From Shouchella oshimensis (GTDB taxonomy: Bacteria; Bacillota; Bacilli; Bacillales; Bacillaceae_D): 64,000 bases of DNA. Under the pieces are notes generated by a model that saw only the letters and a list, made by a program, of their open reading frames with translations, was not told the DNA's origin and ran no database searches. The position numbers were made by a program, and so were the translations under genes. Shown in pieces: positions 32,942 to 42,158 of this stretch. The stretch is taken from positions 3,893,836 to 3,957,835 of the forward strand of contig NZ_KV917380.1 in the NCBI RefSeq assembly GCF_002019765.1, in the 5' to 3' direction. Each line of letters starts with the position of its first letter. Positions within the stretch are counted from its first letter, which is position 1.

Positions 32942-33505
32942 TCAAGTTAACAGGAGCCCTTTAAGAGCAATACGTTGTTTCCCATCAACGGTGCATGTAA
33001 TTAACGTAATTTCATTTTTTCCTTCTTCATCTAGCAAAATATCTGTTTGCGTAGGCTCAATAATCTCTGATGAGGTAATTTCATAGGTATATGTTTTGTT
33101 TTCTACGATTAGATTCACTGTAGCCCCAATCGGTACGTCTGGTAGATTGCGAAAAAAACGATCTCCCCTGTAACCTCTATGACCTGCAACGGTAAAATTT
33201 CCTTCTCCGGGGACTTGATTAGGTTTAATCTGGGTCAACCCTAGATTCAAGGTATCTTCCGTGGTTTCTGGCAAGATCATTTGGTTAAGGTCGATATCAG
33301 GAATTTCTAACCAGATTACATCCTTCGCATACTCAAATTCCTCATCTACCTCCGCAGCACTTGCTTCATTCGAGATAAGATTTACAGCCTGCGTTAATTG
33401 GTCAATCTCTTTTCCTGTCTGCCACTCATGATAAAACGGAATAGAGACAAGAATGAGTCCAATGAGTATGGAGACCATTCCTGCTATTATTTTTGCCTTT
33501 CTCAT
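32942..33505 (-). CDS. Class D-type sortase
   Basis: Cysteine transpeptidase that cuts LPXTG-type signals and joins the protein to peptidoglycan or to another protein. 187 residues: N-terminal membrane helix (about 7-24), then the sortase barrel with His in TVAGHRGYRGD near 110, catalytic Cys in ITLITCTVDG near 173 and Arg in KQRIAL near 180. The start is the ATG eight bases behind GGAGG. It begins 19 bases after the giant LPQTG protein, so that protein is almost certainly its dedicated substrate. Confidence 0.92.
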   Translation of the reverse strand: MRKAKIIAGMVSILIGLILVSIPFYHEWQTGKEIDQLTQAVNLISNEASAAEVDEEFEYAKDVIWLEIPDIDLNQMILPETTEDTLNLGLTQIKPNQVPGEGNFTVAGHRGYRGDRFFRNLPDVPIGATVNLIVENKTYTYEITSSEIIEPTQTDILLDEEGKNEITLITCTVDGKQRIALKGLLLT

Positions 33506-33524
33506 TGAACTCACCTCCTCTTGT

Positions 33525-36500
33525 TTAAGCCATGGTCACTTTTCTTCGATTAAATACGATGAGTAAGCTTCCAACGATGATCAAAAATGAGCCTGCAATC
33601 AGTAGATATCTAAACCATTCTTCCCCTGTCTGAGGCAATGTTTTAGGAACATCCTCTGATGATCCACTCGTTGGAGGTGCATCGGATAGTTCTGGTGGCG
33701 CTGGTGTTGTCGGTGGATCTGGTGTTTCAGTTGGTGGTGGAGGAGTCGATTCTTCAGGTGGCAGCTTCGTGTTTTGAACGATTAGCTCTAGAATTTCTTC
33801 CATTCCTACCTGTACCGTAAACTCAATTGCTTCAACTAACTGTTGATACCCTTCAGGCGCTTTCGTTTCAATTAATTGATAGTCACCTGGCGCCAAATCC
33901 TGTACATTTACTAAGCCAAGATCATTTGTCGTCACCGTCTCAACTACTTGATCATTTCCATCTCGAATCTCAAATTCCGCACCCTGTAAGGTAACATCGG
34001 TTTCCGAATCCACTTTAATGATGGTGACATGACCTAGAATCAATTTATTGACTACCTCAATCTTGACAACTTCCTGCTGATTAAACTCTATTTTAAATAA
34101 TCGTGGAGTCTCATCAATCTGGTATCCAAACGGTGCTTCCGTTTCGACAAAGTAGTAGCTACCTGGGGATAAATCATTGACCACCAGTTTGCCTTCTTCG
34201 TTTGTCGTTAGACCGGTTTGGAGTTCGTTATCTTCAGAGTCGTATAGAGTGAAGACCGCTCCTTCAAGCGTCTCTCCCTCTTCATCCACTTTTGTCAGTT
34301 CAACGGCGCCCGGGCTTGCAGAGTTTTCCTTCATAACCTCCAGCTGAGCTTCCTGATTAAAGACAATCTCGAATTCGAGCGGCGTGTTATCAAGTTCATA
34401 CCCTTCCGGTGCTTCTGTTTCGACAAAGTAATAGCTACCTAATGCTAATTCTTCAACTACTAATCGACCCTCTCCATCTGTCGTTAGACTCGTTTGAAGT
34501 TCATTGTCTTCTGCATCATATAACGTGAAGACCGCTCCTTCAAGGGTATCTCCTTCTTCGTCCACTTTTGTTAGTGCGACAGACCCGAACGTAAACTCAT
34601 TGATAAAGCTTACTTCAGTAATCGATGTCTGACCTAAACCAATTTCAAATGAAATCGGTGTTGGATCTAGCTGATAGCCAGGGAGCGTCGCTGTTTCCAC
34701 TAGTTGATAGCTGCCTGGTTCTAAATCATCAATCAACAGCTTTCCTTCTTCGTTTGTAAGCAATCCTTCACGCAGTGTGTTTCCTTCGCTGTCTTGAAGT
34801 TCAAATTCTACCCCTTCAAGAACGGTCCCATCTTCGTCCTCTTTCGTCAGTTCAATCGCTCCTGGAATCAAGGTATTTTCCTTCGTTAGTTCCAGTTGCG
34901 CTTCTTGATTAAAGACAATCTCAAACTCGAGTGGTGTAGAGTCTAGCTCGTACCCAAACGGTGCTTCTGTTTCGACAAAGTAGTAAATTCCTGGTGCTAA
35001 ATCTTCTACTATTAATCGACCTTCTTCATCTGTTGTCAGACCCGTTTGCAGTTCATTGTCTTCTGCATCGAATAAACTGAAGACCGCTCCTTCAAGCGTT
35101 TCTCCCTCTTCATCGACCTTAGTCAGTCCGACAGAGCCTAGTGTAAATTCATTGGCAAAGTTCAATTCAATGATATCCGTTGGACCTAATTCAACCTCAA
35201 AGGAGATCGGTGTTGGATCTAACACATATCCCGGAATCGTTGCTGTCTCAACGAATTGATAGCCGCCTGGTGCTAAATCATCTAACAACAGCATACCATT
35301 CTCGTCTGTGAGCAGCCCTTCACGCAGTGTATTTCCTTCAGTGTCCTGAAGTTCAAATTCTACCCCTTCAAGACCTGTTCCATTTTCGTTCACTTTTGTT
35401 AACGCTACGGAACCTAAGATCAATACATTTTCTTTTGTTACTTCTAGCTGTGCTTCTTGATTGAATACAATCTCAAACTGTAACGGCGTAGAGTCCAGCT
35501 CGTATCCAAACGGTGCTTCCGTTTCTACAAAGTAGTAGCTTCCTAGTGCTAAGCCCTCTACGACTAAGCGACCTTCTTCATCTACTGTTAGTCCTGTTTC
35601 CAGTTCATTGTCTTCTGCATCGAATAAGCTGAAGACCGCTCCTTGAAGCGTTTCTCCTTCTTGATCGACCTTAGTCAGTCCTACAGAACCTGGCGTGAAT
35701 TCATTAACAAAACGAAGTTCTCCTACCGTTGTTTCTCCTAAGCCAATTTCAAACACTATCGGTGTTGGATCTAGCTCATATCCAGGAAGCGTTGCTGTTT
35801 CAATGAGTTGATAATTTCCTGGTGCTAAATCATCAATCAACAGCTTTCCTTCTTCGTTTGTAAGCAATCCTTCACGCAATGTGTTTCCTTCGCTGTCTTG
35901 AAGTTCAAATTCTACCCCTTCAAGAACGGTGCCATCTTCGTCCTCTTTCGTCAGTTCAATAGCTCCTGGAATCAGGGTGTTTTCCTTCGTTAGTTCCAAT
36001 TGCGCTTCTTGATTAAAGACGATTTCGAACTCTAACGGCGTGTCATCCAACTCATAGCCAAACGGTGCTTCCGTCTCTACAAAGTAGTAACTACCTGGCT
36101 CAAGGTTTTCAACCACAATTCTTCCATCTTCATCCGTAGTGAGTCCCGTTTGAAGTTCGTTGTCTTCTGCATCAAATAGGCTGAAAACAGCTCCTTCAAG
36201 TGTTTCTCCACTCTCCCCAACCTTGGTTAGTCCAACAGATCCTGGGCTAAACTCATTTACAAAGCTTAGTTCTACGGTTTCTGTTTGACCAAGTGTAATC
36301 TCAAATGGGATTGGTGTTGGATCCAATACATATCCCGGTATTGTTGCTGTTTCGACTAGCTGATAGTTGCCTGGTACTAGACCATCAATAAACAACGTAC
36401 CTTCTTCATCCGTTAGCAAGCCTTCTTGTAATACATTTCCTTCACTATCCTGGAGGGCAAACTCTACACCTTCTAGGACGGTTCCATCCTCATCTTCTTT

Positions 36501-39500
36501 CGTCAATTCAACAGCGCCTGGAATCACCGTGTTTTCTTTGGTTAGTTCCAGCTGCGATTCTTGATTAAAGATGATCTCAAACTCTAACGGAGTGTCATCT
36601 AACTCATATCCGAATGGCGCTTCTGTTTCTACAAAATAGTAGGTACCCGGCACCAAATCTTCTACAACTAATTGTCCGTCTTCGTTTGTTGTTAAACCTG
36701 TTTGTAATTCATTGTCTTCTGCATCAAACAAGCTGAAGACCGCTCCTTCAAGCAATACCTCGTCTTGCCCAACTTTTGTTAAGCTAACAGACCCTGGCGT
36801 AAACTCATTAATGAAGCTAAGTTCTCCTACTGTCGTCTCTCCTAAACCAATTTCGAAAGGAATCGGTGTTGGATTCAGTTCATATCCTGGGAGCGTTGCT
36901 GTTTCGACCAGCTGATAGCTGCCTGGTGTTAGATCATCAATAAAGAGTATACCTTCTTCATCTGTAAGTAAGCCTTCGCGTAGCACAGTTCCATCACTAT
37001 CTTGAAGCTCAAACTCTACACCTTCAAGAAGGACTCCTTCTTCATCGACCTTCGTTAATTCAACTGCTCCAGGAATCAAGAGATTTTCTCTTGTTAATTC
37101 CAGTTGCGCCTCTTGATTAAAGTCAATTTCAAATGCTAATGGCGTATCGTCTAGCACATAACCAAATGGTGCTTCCGTCTCTACAAAGTAGTAGCTACCT
37201 GGTGCTAGCTCTTCTACAACCAATCGACCTTCTTCATTAGTCGTTAGACCTGTTTGCAATTCGTTATCTTCGGAGTCGAAAAGGCTGAAAACAGCTCCTT
37301 CAAGTGTATCTCCACTTTCTCCGACTTTCGTTAAACCGACAGACCCTGGTGTAAACTCATTCACAAAGCTTACTTCCGTTACGGTTGTTTGACCTAAGCC
37401 AATCTCAAATTGAATTGGTGTTGGATCCAACTCATAGCCTGGAAGTGTTGCTGTTTCCACCAATTGATAGCTTCCCGGTGTTAAATCGTCAATGAAAAGT
37501 TTACCTTCTTCATCCGTAAGCAAACCTTCTCGTATTGTATTGCCATCACGATCCTGAAGTTCAAACTCTACGCCTTCAAGAATCGTTCCATCCTCATCTT
37601 CCTTCGTCAGTTCAACCGCACCTGGTATTAACGTGTTTTCTTTCGTTACTTCTACCTGTGCTTCTTGATTAAAGACGATATCAAATGGTAATGGTGTATC
37701 GTCTAACACATAACCAAATGGTGCTTCCGTCTCTACAAAATAGTAGCTGCCTGGCACTAAGTCTTCCACGACTAGTAAACCTTCTTCATTTGTGGTTAGA
37801 CCTGTCTGGAGTTCATTGTCATCGGAATTGAATAGGCTGAAAACCGCTCCTTCAAGCGTTTCGCCATCCTCTCCGACTTTACTAAGTTCTACAGAACCTG
37901 GCACTGGACGATTCTCCTTTGTCAGTTCAATTAATTCTTGAACCGCCAAATCAATGGTAAAAGGAATCGGTGTAGCATCTAACACATAACCCACTGGCGC
38001 CTGTGTTTCAACTAATTCGTAGTTTCCAGGCAAAAGATCCTCAATGAAAAGAATACCATTTTCATCGGTTGTTAAGCCGGTAGCTACCTCTTCACCAGCC
38101 TCATTAAATAGCGTAAACACGGCTCCCTCAAGGAGCTCTCCATCCTCACTCTGTTTAGTTAGTTGAACAGAGTTATCTAGATCCATGTACACGCCAACCC
38201 TTGCTGGTTCAACAGGTTGTCCTTGATCTGTCGCGATGGCAAAAGAGTTCCATGCGGCTCTTTGCGTAGGGTTAACCGTTTTATCCAATACACTCGAGTC
38301 AACGTCTGCTGCTTCTGGAGCCATCATCGAGAAAGCAATAGCGATATCTTCTCCATCAATCCATTCTACTCCCTCACTAAGCTCAATCTTAAAGGAATGA
38401 ATGGAAGACCAATCATCGACCTCAGATCCTAAGACCCAATTCGGTGCCTGTGCCCCTTCAGGATTAGATAGTTGCTCTGTTGTGTCAGGGTAGTTGGTAT
38501 GTCTAATTAAGTCATCTCGTTCTGGAGTAAGTGCTGTACTATAATACACATCCACTCGATCTGTCCATTGTGACGGAAGCTGAATCGCTTCTGTCAGCTG
38601 CGGTGTGAATTGACTACCACGGTCAATATTATCCGTTATTCCTAAATCACCAATGGATGGTAATACATCCATCAATGTCATCGTAGAAATTGTACTTCCC
38701 GTTGTGTTCGTTAGGGTTAATTGATAATCAATGACCCCACCAGGAACCGTTCTTCCAAACGTCGTAAATTCGTCATCTAATTCTCCTCTGACAAGCTTCT
38801 CTGTCTGGATATTATACTGACCACTTATATAATATTCGTTGCCTGATTTCAATCGGGGTTGGTCTGTGTTTCCATTCTCATTTAAATCCTCTGAATCCGT
38901 CTGTAAAACGGTATCTGTATGTCCTGGATTATCAACAGATGGGACCGTTAATGTCTCATCTCCTGAGAAACCATAAACATCAAAGGTAAGGACATTCGCT
39001 GCCCCTTCATTGATCTGAACATTAATCTCAGAGGTTACATTATTACCTGGTCTAAGTAGACGATCTGTCCAATTAAACTTAACAAGTTGTCGCCCTGTAT
39101 CATTGTAATTATCAGTTACAATGTCATGAGATCCACCTGAAGCTCTTCCATCCGCATCAATAAATTCAGCGTCTGGATCATCAGATATGGTGATACCAGG
39201 TGGTAACAGCACCATTGCCTCTAATGGCTCACTCATCGCTAATGTCGAACTATTTTCCGTATTTAAATTTACACGCATACGGTTATCACCAAAATCTACA
39301 TAGGATCCTTGATGATTTGTTAATTCTACATCCACTGTAGCAATTGGCGGTTGATCTGTTGGTCGTGGAGCGATTTGAGCAGAACGTGGAGTGGCAATTG
39401 TATTTGAACCGTAATGCCTACCACCAGTACCTTTGCCAAAACGAGTGCCTTCTCCCCCGATACCAAATACATCAAATTCGTTTGTTACACTTCCAACATA

Positions 39501-41579
39501 GCCTGGTTCAACCTCAAAATAGTATGTTGGATGAGCCCCACCCATGCCACTAGGAGCATGCGTGAAATTCAAATATATTGCACTGACTCTTGCATCTGTA
39601 TCAATTCCTAAGTCACTTCTACTGTAAATTCTCCCAATATCAGCATTTTCAATTAAAACTAGTCGTTCTCCATTCACGTCCGCCTCAATATTAAAGCGAG
39701 GAGGATCTACAAACGGAACACCATCTGGGAATTGGTTTGTAGGTCTATATATAAATCTAGCCGCCGTTCCCCCAGTTCTCATTTCTTTGAAAACTAAATG
39801 TTCATCAATGTTCATGACCGTTGTATATGCTCTAAAATCCCCTTCATTACTTTCATGTAAAGGAGATATATTATGATAAAAAGCTAAGAGCGCATCGTCA
39901 TAAACAAGAGGATTCGGATCTCTATTCGTATTTGAACCAATATTTCCTCTATCATCGATAGGGCCGATATGTCCAGGAATAAACACACTTCCTCTTATCT
40001 CACCCGTCGCCTTATCAGAATCAGCAATTGTGACACTGTGGTTGGCATTTACCGAGTTTTCATTATCTTCTCCAATAAATGTAGCGCTTACATCAACATT
40101 ATTCGTTAATGTTTGATCAACTGTATTCCCACCTACCGTTAAGACAACCTCTAACTCCGTGTTAAATAGTGTACCTTCTGCCGCTTCTTGCTCTTCAACA
40201 CTTGGCGCTTCAAATGTCCATACTAAAGTATTACCATTTTGTTCAGGCTCAGGACCTGTAATGGTAGATTGATAGGATAGACCATTTGGTAGCGTATCGA
40301 CTACGGTAATCTGGGAGCCCGGCTCCAAATAATTTTGGCCAATATTATTCTTAGGGATGTCTACGTTCATTTCCCAGACTGTTTGCGAATTAGGAATTGG
40401 TATATTCCGATCATTTCCCCTAGCTTCCGTATATCGCTTAGACGCAGAGATTGTCGTTGATGCATCAATAACGACAATTGCTAAATCTTGTACTGGTTCA
40501 AATTGATCTGCTACAAAAGATGCTTGCACATCTAACTCTGTACCACTTGCTATCAATCCATTCGTTGTTTGCAATTTAATAACATTTTCATAGGTTTGCC
40601 CGGCTTGTAACGTATCAAATTGATAGATTAATTGGCTTGATTCTGAATTAAAAGTTGGCTCTACACCAGCTATTCTTAATTCTGACAATGATTGATTAAA
40701 ATTCACTTCACTTGAAAGTGGTAGATCAACTGTTATGATGGCGTTTGTGTATTCTGTGACAGAACCTGTTGTTTTAAAAACCAGCTTATATGCTGCATCG
40801 TTTCCTGCAAGAACATTAGCATTTAACGGCGAGATATCAATATCTACGTTTAAATCTCCCACCATTGGTTTAAAAATAGGCTCGTCCTGATCATCATTCC
40901 CATCTTCACCTTGATTTGTTTCTTCTTGTTGCTTAGAATCTTCTTCCTCTTCTTCTGAAGAGGAGTCCTCTGAAGTCACATCGCTTGATTCTTCGGACTT
41001 GTCACTTTCAGGGTTAGCTTCTTCTACACCTTCATCGTCACCAGAACGATTTGCGTCTGATTGACCAGAATGGTTTTCCTCATTCTCTTCTGTACCAGAT
41101 TCATTTAAGCCTTCATCTGCATCGGAACGATCTGATTCCACTGTGACAAAGTAGTCAAGGCTCTTCGTACTGCCGTCATTAAGATGGCCTCTAACTTCTA
41201 GACTATTCTCACCTACATGAAAGCCAGTTAGAATGATAGTCGCAGATAGAGGAGACAGTTCTTCTTTAAGAATATTTAAACTATTCCCCTCGTTATTATA
41301 GATCATCGTACTATCAGACTTTAACGCTTTTGTACTCTCTTCATCGTATTTGATACCATCTGGAAGAATAAACTCCAAATTAACCAAATTAGAATAGGTT
41401 GTTTCGACGTTAAGAATAACCTGTTCTTCTGTTGGTACCCCCTTAACAGAGATATCAACTTCTTCATTAAATTCTCTTTCTGAAGCCTGTGTTAAACCAA
41501 TTTGTCCATAAGGCGAAAAAAGAATGAGAAAAATAAGAATAACAATAAAACTTTTTTTGGCCCCTTTCTGTCTTCTCAT
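33525..41579 (-). CDS. Giant LPQTG surface protein with 16 SpaA/Cna-B-type repeats
   Basis: Cell-wall-anchored adhesin of 2684 residues. Order: signal peptide (1-32); beta domain (about 35-148); acidic, disordered Ser/Glu/Asp linker (149-235); large adhesive head (about 236-1135) with DUF11-like beta modules; sixteen prealbumin-like units of exactly 92 residues (1136-2607); Pro/Thr-rich wall spacer; LPQTG (2648-2652), membrane helix and RRK tail. Each unit has Lys7, Glu56 and Asn88, the set that forms an intramolecular isopeptide bond in Cna-B domains. The stalk should be stiff and protease-resistant. GGGGAGGG precedes the ATG. Ligand unknown. Confidence 0.93.
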   Translation of the reverse strand: MRRQKGAKKSFIVILIFLILFSPYGQIGLTQASEREFNEEVDISVKGVPTEEQVILNVETTYSNLVNLEFILPDGIKYDEESTKALKSDSTMIYNNEGNSLNILKEELSPLSATIILTGFHVGENSLEVRGHLNDGSTKSLDYFVTVESDRSDADEGLNESGTEENEENHSGQSDANRSGDDEGVEEANPESDKSEESSDVTSEDSSSEEEEEDSKQQEETNQGEDGNDDQDEPIFKPMVGDLNVDIDISPLNANVLAGNDAAYKLVFKTTGSVTEYTNAIITVDLPLSSEVNFNQSLSELRIAGVEPTFNSESSQLIYQFDTLQAGQTYENVIKLQTTNGLIASGTELDVQASFVADQFEPVQDLAIVVIDASTTISASKRYTEARGNDRNIPIPNSQTVWEMNVDIPKNNIGQNYLEPGSQITVVDTLPNGLSYQSTITGPEPEQNGNTLVWTFEAPSVEEQEAAEGTLFNTELEVVLTVGGNTVDQTLTNNVDVSATFIGEDNENSVNANHSVTIADSDKATGEIRGSVFIPGHIGPIDDRGNIGSNTNRDPNPLVYDDALLAFYHNISPLHESNEGDFRAYTTVMNIDEHLVFKEMRTGGTAARFIYRPTNQFPDGVPFVDPPRFNIEADVNGERLVLIENADIGRIYSRSDLGIDTDARVSAIYLNFTHAPSGMGGAHPTYYFEVEPGYVGSVTNEFDVFGIGGEGTRFGKGTGGRHYGSNTIATPRSAQIAPRPTDQPPIATVDVELTNHQGSYVDFGDNRMRVNLNTENSSTLAMSEPLEAMVLLPPGITISDDPDAEFIDADGRASGGSHDIVTDNYNDTGRQLVKFNWTDRLLRPGNNVTSEINVQINEGAANVLTFDVYGFSGDETLTVPSVDNPGHTDTVLQTDSEDLNENGNTDQPRLKSGNEYYISGQYNIQTEKLVRGELDDEFTTFGRTVPGGVIDYQLTLTNTTGSTISTMTLMDVLPSIGDLGITDNIDRGSQFTPQLTEAIQLPSQWTDRVDVYYSTALTPERDDLIRHTNYPDTTEQLSNPEGAQAPNWVLGSEVDDWSSIHSFKIELSEGVEWIDGEDIAIAFSMMAPEAADVDSSVLDKTVNPTQRAAWNSFAIATDQGQPVEPARVGVYMDLDNSVQLTKQSEDGELLEGAVFTLFNEAGEEVATGLTTDENGILFIEDLLPGNYELVETQAPVGYVLDATPIPFTIDLAVQELIELTKENRPVPGSVELSKVGEDGETLEGAVFSLFNSDDNELQTGLTTNEEGLLVVEDLVPGSYYFVETEAPFGYVLDDTPLPFDIVFNQEAQVEVTKENTLIPGAVELTKEDEDGTILEGVEFELQDRDGNTIREGLLTDEEGKLFIDDLTPGSYQLVETATLPGYELDPTPIQFEIGLGQTTVTEVSFVNEFTPGSVGLTKVGESGDTLEGAVFSLFDSEDNELQTGLTTNEEGRLVVEELAPGSYYFVETEAPFGYVLDDTPLAFEIDFNQEAQLELTRENLLIPGAVELTKVDEEGVLLEGVEFELQDSDGTVLREGLLTDEEGILFIDDLTPGSYQLVETATLPGYELNPTPIPFEIGLGETTVGELSFINEFTPGSVSLTKVGQDEVLLEGAVFSLFDAEDNELQTGLTTNEDGQLVVEDLVPGTYYFVETEAPFGYELDDTPLEFEIIFNQESQLELTKENTVIPGAVELTKEDEDGTVLEGVEFALQDSEGNVLQEGLLTDEEGTLFIDGLVPGNYQLVETATIPGYVLDPTPIPFEITLGQTETVELSFVNEFSPGSVGLTKVGESGETLEGAVFSLFDAEDNELQTGLTTDEDGRIVVENLEPGSYYFVETEAPFGYELDDTPLEFEIVFNQEAQLELTKENTLIPGAIELTKEDEDGTVLEGVEFELQDSEGNTLREGLLTNEEGKLLIDDLAPGNYQLIETATLPGYELDPTPIVFEIGLGETTVGELRFVNEFTPGSVGLTKVDQEGETLQGAVFSLFDAEDNELETGLTVDEEGRLVVEGLALGSYYFVETEAPFGYELDSTPLQFEIVFNQEAQLEVTKENVLILGSVALTKVNENGTGLEGVEFELQDTEGNTLREGLLTDENGMLLLDDLAPGGYQFVETATIPGYVLDPTPISFEVELGPTDIIELNFANEFTLGSVGLTKVDEEGETLEGAVFSLFDAEDNELQTGLTTDEEGRLIVEDLAPGIYYFVETEAPFGYELDSTPLEFEIVFNQEAQLELTKENTLIPGAIELTKEDEDGTVLEGVEFELQDSEGNTLREGLLTNEEGKLLIDDLEPGSYQLVETATLPGYQLDPTPISFEIGLGQTSITEVSFINEFTFGSVALTKVDEEGDTLEGAVFTLYDAEDNELQTSLTTDGEGRLVVEELALGSYYFVETEAPEGYELDNTPLEFEIVFNQEAQLEVMKENSASPGAVELTKVDEEGETLEGAVFTLYDSEDNELQTGLTTNEEGKLVVNDLSPGSYYFVETEAPFGYQIDETPRLFKIEFNQQEVVKIEVVNKLILGHVTIIKVDSETDVTLQGAEFEIRDGNDQVVETVTTNDLGLVNVQDLAPGDYQLIETKAPEGYQQLVEAIEFTVQVGMEEILELIVQNTKLPPEESTPPPPTETPDPPTTPAPPELSDAPPTSGSSEDVPKTLPQTGEEWFRYLLIAGSFLIIVGSLLIVFNRRKVTMA
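33759..38174 (-). repeat. Tandem array: 16 units of 276 bp, alternating A and B types
   Basis: Unit boundaries fall every 276 bases without a single indel. Units 2, 4, 6, 8, 10, 12, 14 and 15 are type A (FVETEAPFGY, FNQEAQ, TKEN). Units 3, 5, 7, 9, 11 and 13 are type B (ETATLPGY or ETATIPGY, VNEF). Units 1 and 16 are divergent caps. The effective period is therefore 552 bp for units 2-13. Confidence 0.95.
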
Positions 41580-42158
41580 ATAACCCTCCCCAAAATTAAA
41601 TTAGTAATATATAGGACAATAAATACGATTAAACGTCAAAAGGTGCATTTTTAGTCCATATATTTACACAAATCATAGCATCGTTAAACATTCTGTCAAA
41701 TTATAGAATGATAAATCAATGTATTATACTAAAACGATTGTAATAACAAGGATTTTAAATAGATCTAAAGTTTCATTTCTAGAAGAATAAGAATAATTTA
41801 CTAGTACGCAAGACTTTACAACAGATCAATCATTTTGTTATTGATTACACATTCAACTCAGTCATTATATGATTTCGATAAAAAGACTTATTTATTGGAA
41901 ATTGTTTATTATTTGCAAACTGAAATAATATAAGTAAATTAATAGAACCTTTAGACCTATTAACTTTATATCCTTTTATCCAATTAAGAACGCGACCTCT
42001 GTTGATGGCAATCCATTGGAAAGGGATAAATTATTAACACTAACATGTGAGCGCCTTTTTGAAGTAACCCTTCAGAATAGAATGTTTCATCGAAAAAAGA
42101 CCACAAACCTAAAGTTCTTAACTCTTCTCCCTATTTTTCATATAACGGAAAATCACGC
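41580..42158. other. AT-rich region upstream of the giant surface gene
   Basis: About 580 bases without a convincing ORF. It should hold the promoter of the surface protein: on the minus strand TTGACG (41634-41639) is followed only at about 20 bases by TATATA, so no standard promoter stands out. Several short AT-rich palindromes are seen but none is distinctive. Confidence 0.35.

Follow-up and report, generated by a model that had tools for sequence, protein, structure and literature searches.

Among the stalk domains of the fibrillar adhesins, long single-chain proteins with tandem stalk domains and a wall anchor, SpaA ranks second in frequency, and 1–73 stalk domains are found per protein (PMC8286594). 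Long surface proteins have already been surveyed for isopeptide domains in tandem (PMC12617251). The SpaA-stalked members possess a signal peptide, a putative adhesive domain, a tandem SpaA/isopeptide stalk and an LPXTG anchor (PMC8286594, PMC12617251). Tandem CnaB isopeptide domains are also present in BaTIE (BasC/BA5258; 6FWV), a wall-anchored protein of Bacillus anthracis with three such domains and a thioester tip. Crystallography revealed bonds between Lys297 and Asn373, Lys384 and Asp464, and Lys475 and Asn555, with the loss of mass in agreement (PMC6194298). CnaB-like domains also occur in BcpA (3KPT), the polymerised major pilin of Bacillus cereus. The Periscope Proteins have tandem rod-forming stalks composed of highly identical copies, and their copy number varies among homologues (PMC8201768, PMC9704523).

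The window considered here, a stretch of 64,000 nucleotides from Shouchella oshimensis (contig NZ_KV917380.1), encodes a giant LPXTG-anchored protein followed by a sortase (Table 1). The locus had been ascribed to an environmental Bacillus, a placement which its relatives correct to the genus Shouchella. The open reading frame and its Pfam matches describe one long chain that bears stalk domains in tandem and is anchored to the wall, and we interpret the protein, with a probability of roughly 0.88, as a sortase-anchored, single-chain fibrillar adhesin whose stalk is locked by Lys–Asn bonds and which is anchored by the adjacent sortase. It shares with the SpaA-stalked fibrillar adhesins the four elements listed above. 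It differs from them in a regular alternation of two stalk unit types, in the adjacent, co-mobile sortase and in a head with no recognised adhesive domain beyond pAdhesive_11, itself a putative adhesive family. Its best match in both sequence and fold is BaTIE, with the bond-forming lysine and the glutamate aligned, but the adhesin has sixteen units in place of three and not a single cysteine in its 2684 residues. A Cys–Gln thioester is therefore impossible, and a thioester tip of the BaTIE kind was rejected. BcpA is homologous to the stalk in sequence and fold, although the adhesin lacks pilin features. A literature search listed no paper that deals with SpaA stalks or sortases in Shouchella. 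SpaA-stalked fibrillar adhesins are already well known, and the mobile cassette and uncharacterised head are modest additions.

Table 1. Features of the adhesin–sortase locus (positions in the window)
Feature	Position	Strand	Evidence and remarks
Promoter-like TTGACA-16-TATGAT	41672..41699	minus	11/12, extended -10; consensus match only; best of the region
Giant LPXTG-anchored adhesin ORF	33525..41579	minus	2684 aa; Pfam SpaA x16, pAdhesive_11, Gram_pos_anchor
Putative adhesive domain pAdhesive_11 (aa 37-140), following the signal peptide	41160..41471	minus	Pfam, E = 6.6e-21
Head region, aa 241-1135 (895 aa), beta-rich, conserved	38175..40859	minus	Weak DUF11-like matches; without solved relative
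Stalk of sixteen SpaA/CnaB-like units of 92 aa, all with Lys7, Glu56 and Asn88	33759..38174	minus	Pfam, alignment, AlphaFold, PDB matches
Wall sorting signal (LPQTGEEWFRY) with membrane span and positive tail	33528..33638	minus	Pfam Gram_pos_anchor
Sortase gene	32942..33505	minus	ATG start, alternative GTG at 33514; Pfam Sortase, E = 7.4e-24

The stalk had been described as sixteen 92-codon units in phase, and this holds. The units exactly fill residues 1136–2607, and every one of the 15 Lys-to-Lys intervals is 92 residues. Pfam SpaA (PF17802) matches 16 stretches with 1009 bits against a cut-off of 23.1. Autocorrelation of the protein sequence gives an identity of 0.446 at a lag of 92 but 0.682 at a lag of 184, and the higher value at the doubled lag indicates two alternating unit types. 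These are the A and B types recognised previously, ending TKEN and VNEF respectively, with both asparagines in one alignment column. The alternation is not pure, since the order is A', six A–B pairs, A, A' and a divergent final unit. The first-pass annotation also held that the array lacks any indel. The 276-base period is indeed exact, but in unit 16 shifts of +1 and -1 codon cancel out between Lys7 and Gly40; one unit of the Virgibacillus homologue has 91 codons. The array escaped Tandem Repeats Finder (TRF), presumably because adjacent copies have diverged too far and the A–B period, at 552 bases, is beyond the program's 500-base limit. The stalk has a net charge of -281, amounting to -14 to -20 per unit. 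This extreme acidity, together with the near absence of lysine outside position 7, is perhaps an alkaliphile trait.

Lys7, Glu56 and Asn88 are retained in all sixteen units, as had been claimed, and in every one of 78 units compared across five genomes; the trio is likewise intact in all six units of the Virgibacillus homologue. Eleven columns are invariant among the sixteen units (K7, G40, L47, G50, Y52, E56, T57, G62, Y63, F72 and N88), and ten, the trio among them, across the 78. The probability that three named columns would fall among ten invariant ones by chance is about 0.001. At the trio sites of the 78 units both synonymous codons are used (AAA/AAG, GAA/GAG and AAT/AAC), and thus selection acts on the residues. 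Since Gly, Tyr, Leu and Phe residues of structural type also occur among the invariant columns, the trio might be conserved for folding alone, leaving some or most units without a bond. This is very unlikely, however, as the bond chemistry of this fold calls for precisely these three residues, the stalk has hardly any other lysine (Lys7 accounts for 16 of the 32 in its 1472 residues and is the sole lysine of units 4, 5, 7 and 11), and bonds do form in the homologous domains of BaTIE (PMC6194298).

The predicted fold is in keeping with bond formation. An AlphaFold model of one A–B pair (units 8–9, with 35 aligned pairs as input; pLDDT 94.5, pTM 0.75) puts Lys7 in strand 3–8, Glu56 in strand 50–58 and Asn88 just past strand 82–87. 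This is the placement expected of such domains, with lysine on the first strand, glutamate in the core and Asn/Asp on the last, and the three residues are present in all 16 units of the stalk and in all 78 of the five genomes. A Foldseek search with the model returned BaTIE 6FWV first and BcpA 3KPT next, and a CnaB2 domain from Lactiplantibacillus plantarum (8BDW) superposes on one unit at 0.9 Å over 92 columns with 42% identity. In the HMMER alignment to BaTIE, numbered as chain position plus 31 by our own calculation from the construct, Lys7 is paired with Lys297 and Glu56 with Glu343, whilst Lys7 of the following unit is paired with Lys384. Asn88 shares a column with Asn375 of the first domain, two residues from Asn373. 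Even so, the lysine of the next domain comes 11 residues after the bond Asn/Asp in BaTIE and in the stalk alike, so Asn88 is taken as the equivalent of Asn373 and the offset as a matter of gap placement. For the second BaTIE domain PMC6194298 prints Glu443; in the aligned sequence position 443 is Asn and the Glu stands at 433, and we read Glu443 as a misprint. Homology, conservation and predicted fold together give the proposed isopeptide set good support, and it is very likely, as a prediction from sequence, model and homology, that one Lys–Asn bond is present in each stalk unit. Against it counts that in some such domains, as in SpaD of Corynebacterium diphtheriae, bond formation is only slow (PMC4014117).

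The domains, the conserved trio, the predicted fold, the homology to BaTIE and the linkage to the sortase come from direct analysis, and the following mechanism is proposed. The secreted chain would carry its N-terminal putative adhesive domain and long beta-rich head away from the wall on the stalk, a rigid rod of sixteen CnaB/SpaA domains. Within each domain Lys7 on the first strand and Asn88 on the last would form an isopeptide bond spontaneously, assisted by the buried Glu56. With such a bond in each domain, the stalk would be expected to resist both pulling and proteolysis. The terminal LPQTG is probably cut by the sortase encoded next door, joining the chain to the wall. Bond formation, the acting sortase and adhesion are the steps which we infer. 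With sixteen probable isopeptide domains in a Shouchella that is probably harmless, this very regular natural array could be useful for counting covalent locks per chain and for studying mechanical summation.

The sortase does lie 19 bases downstream of the adhesin, counting from the ATG at 33505, which is preceded by a good match to a ribosome site, AGGAGGTG. By inspection the enzyme has an N-terminal membrane segment and His, Cys and Arg catalytic motifs, and ends right after the catalytic domain. It passes the cut-off of the general model TIGR01076 and scores below those for classes C, D and E. It had been called dedicated, a status supported by linkage at the sequence level: the adhesin is followed by the sortase in all six complete loci checked, and LPQTGEEW is conserved in the same six, that of Virgibacillus included. 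Among the sorting signals found in the S. oshimensis genome, LPQTGEEW is unique to the giant adhesin, the others being LPQTGDQ, LPQTS, LPDTA and LPKTA. Against exclusivity, the genome contains eight sortases, that is, seven besides the adjacent one. Several of the eight lie beside or near proteins with other signals (PKTSS, LPKTA, LPQTGDQ), suggesting that this genome may have multiple sortase–substrate pairs. It also has a second very long surface protein, a 2599-aa frame with two SpaA matches and a sortase directly downstream (L036:4659-13102; G000:C1, about 160.7-169.1 kb).

The same enzyme might instead polymerise the protein, acting on it as a pilin and joining copies head-to-tail into a covalent pilus longer than one chain. 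The NCBIfam model of the SpaH/EbpB major pilin matches at 272.7 bits against a cut-off of 95, and class C is both the top subfamily model of the sortase and the class of its top PDB match. The pilin match stems, however, from shared SpaA domains, and the sortase reaches only 83.2 bits on the curated class C model, for which the cut-off is 160. Inspection revealed neither a C-terminal membrane segment nor a DPF/W lid motif in the enzyme. The YPK pilin motif is absent from all five full-length close homologues, this protein among them; a single YPK near the N-terminus of the Virgibacillus protein is not conserved. Furthermore, the cassette has no second pilin and no second sortase. We consider polymerisation highly improbable and reject the pilus on the absence of the pilin motif and the wrong sortase architecture. 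The analysis revealed nothing characteristic of a polymerised fibre, and the earlier description of a giant-fibre system gives way to that of a single-chain fibrillar adhesin.

Adhesin and sortase appear to travel together. The genes flanking them are the same in S. oshimensis and in its sister species G031, and different at the other loci. Compared with the genomes of other genera and of Shouchella rhizosphaerae, recN of S. oshimensis shows about 59–66% protein identity and differs at 62–75% of four-fold sites, and gyrB too is close to saturation. The head, sortase and array of the cassette, by contrast, retain 86–95% protein identity, with 18–49% of four-fold sites different. The array DNA of S. 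oshimensis is 92.9% identical to that of Alkalicoccobacillus versus 86.2% to that of G031. The cassette is also a mosaic: its head is nearest to G031, its array and sortase to Alkalicoccobacillus (window 32942-40859 against L032 and L039). Judged from these sequences, there is strong evidence that the pair has been transferred horizontally, and it is to be regarded as a two-gene cassette, which four genera carry at differing places in the chromosome. A search of a plasmid collection gave no close copy of it, only relatives at 30–39%.

Stalk length varies among the homologues, with 16, 16, 16 and 14 units in four near ones and 6 in Virgibacillus, a comparison made at the level of species. The 14-unit array lacks units 12–13, exactly one in-register A–B pair, and the even copy numbers fit gain and loss by such pairs, albeit as an inference from few events. 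These are also the features expected if the protein were of the Periscope type, its length switched by rapid loss and gain of repeats. The copies within the array are, however, only 39–85% identical as DNA, and most units of S. oshimensis are closest to the same-numbered unit in other genera (exceptions being unit 13 against G031 and unit 12 against G007). Being diverged and positionally orthologous, the copies indicate an array which is old and fairly stable. Rapid length switching is thus improbable, and membership of the Periscope Proteins, for which highly identical tandem repeats are diagnostic, was rejected at this level of unit identity. In a distant relative belonging to a different family, SpaA matches eleven times, mostly with a 92-aa period (L063:1901-8428); it ends in LPATATN, a class D-type signal, and no sortase was found adjoining it.

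The head is the least explained portion of the adhesin. Pfam and NCBIfam yielded no domain above threshold within it, only sub-threshold matches of DUF11 type, and a profile search against solved structures returned nothing up to E = 0.1. An AlphaFold model of the head built from five sequences was unusable (pLDDT 45). Of 41 genomes from the family, 5 have a head homologue, as do 9 of 399 sampled across the order, with S. oshimensis counted in both. The 895-aa region is 93% identical in G031, 91% in Alkalihalobacillus trypoxylicola, 88% in both Alkalicoccobacillus porphyridii and S. rhizosphaerae, and 67% in Virgibacillus sp. It also aligns over its full length, at 30–39%, to proteins on Enterococcus and Listeria records, the Listeria relative being perhaps lmo2179. 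Transfer of adhesin and sortase across genera, along with a head shared with Listeria and Enterococcus, points to a surface-attachment module. It is possible, and we propose it only tentatively, that the pair is a mobile display cassette in which an undescribed head, distributed from Bacillaceae to Listeria and Enterococcus, is presented on varied covalently reinforced or mucin-type stalks, with length set by in-register A–B pairs. Elsewhere in the Bacillales, the stalks of head relatives number one, two or eleven SpaA units, and the two Enterococcus/Listeria relatives with recognisable stalks have seven AgI_II_C2 domains or MucBP instead of SpaA.
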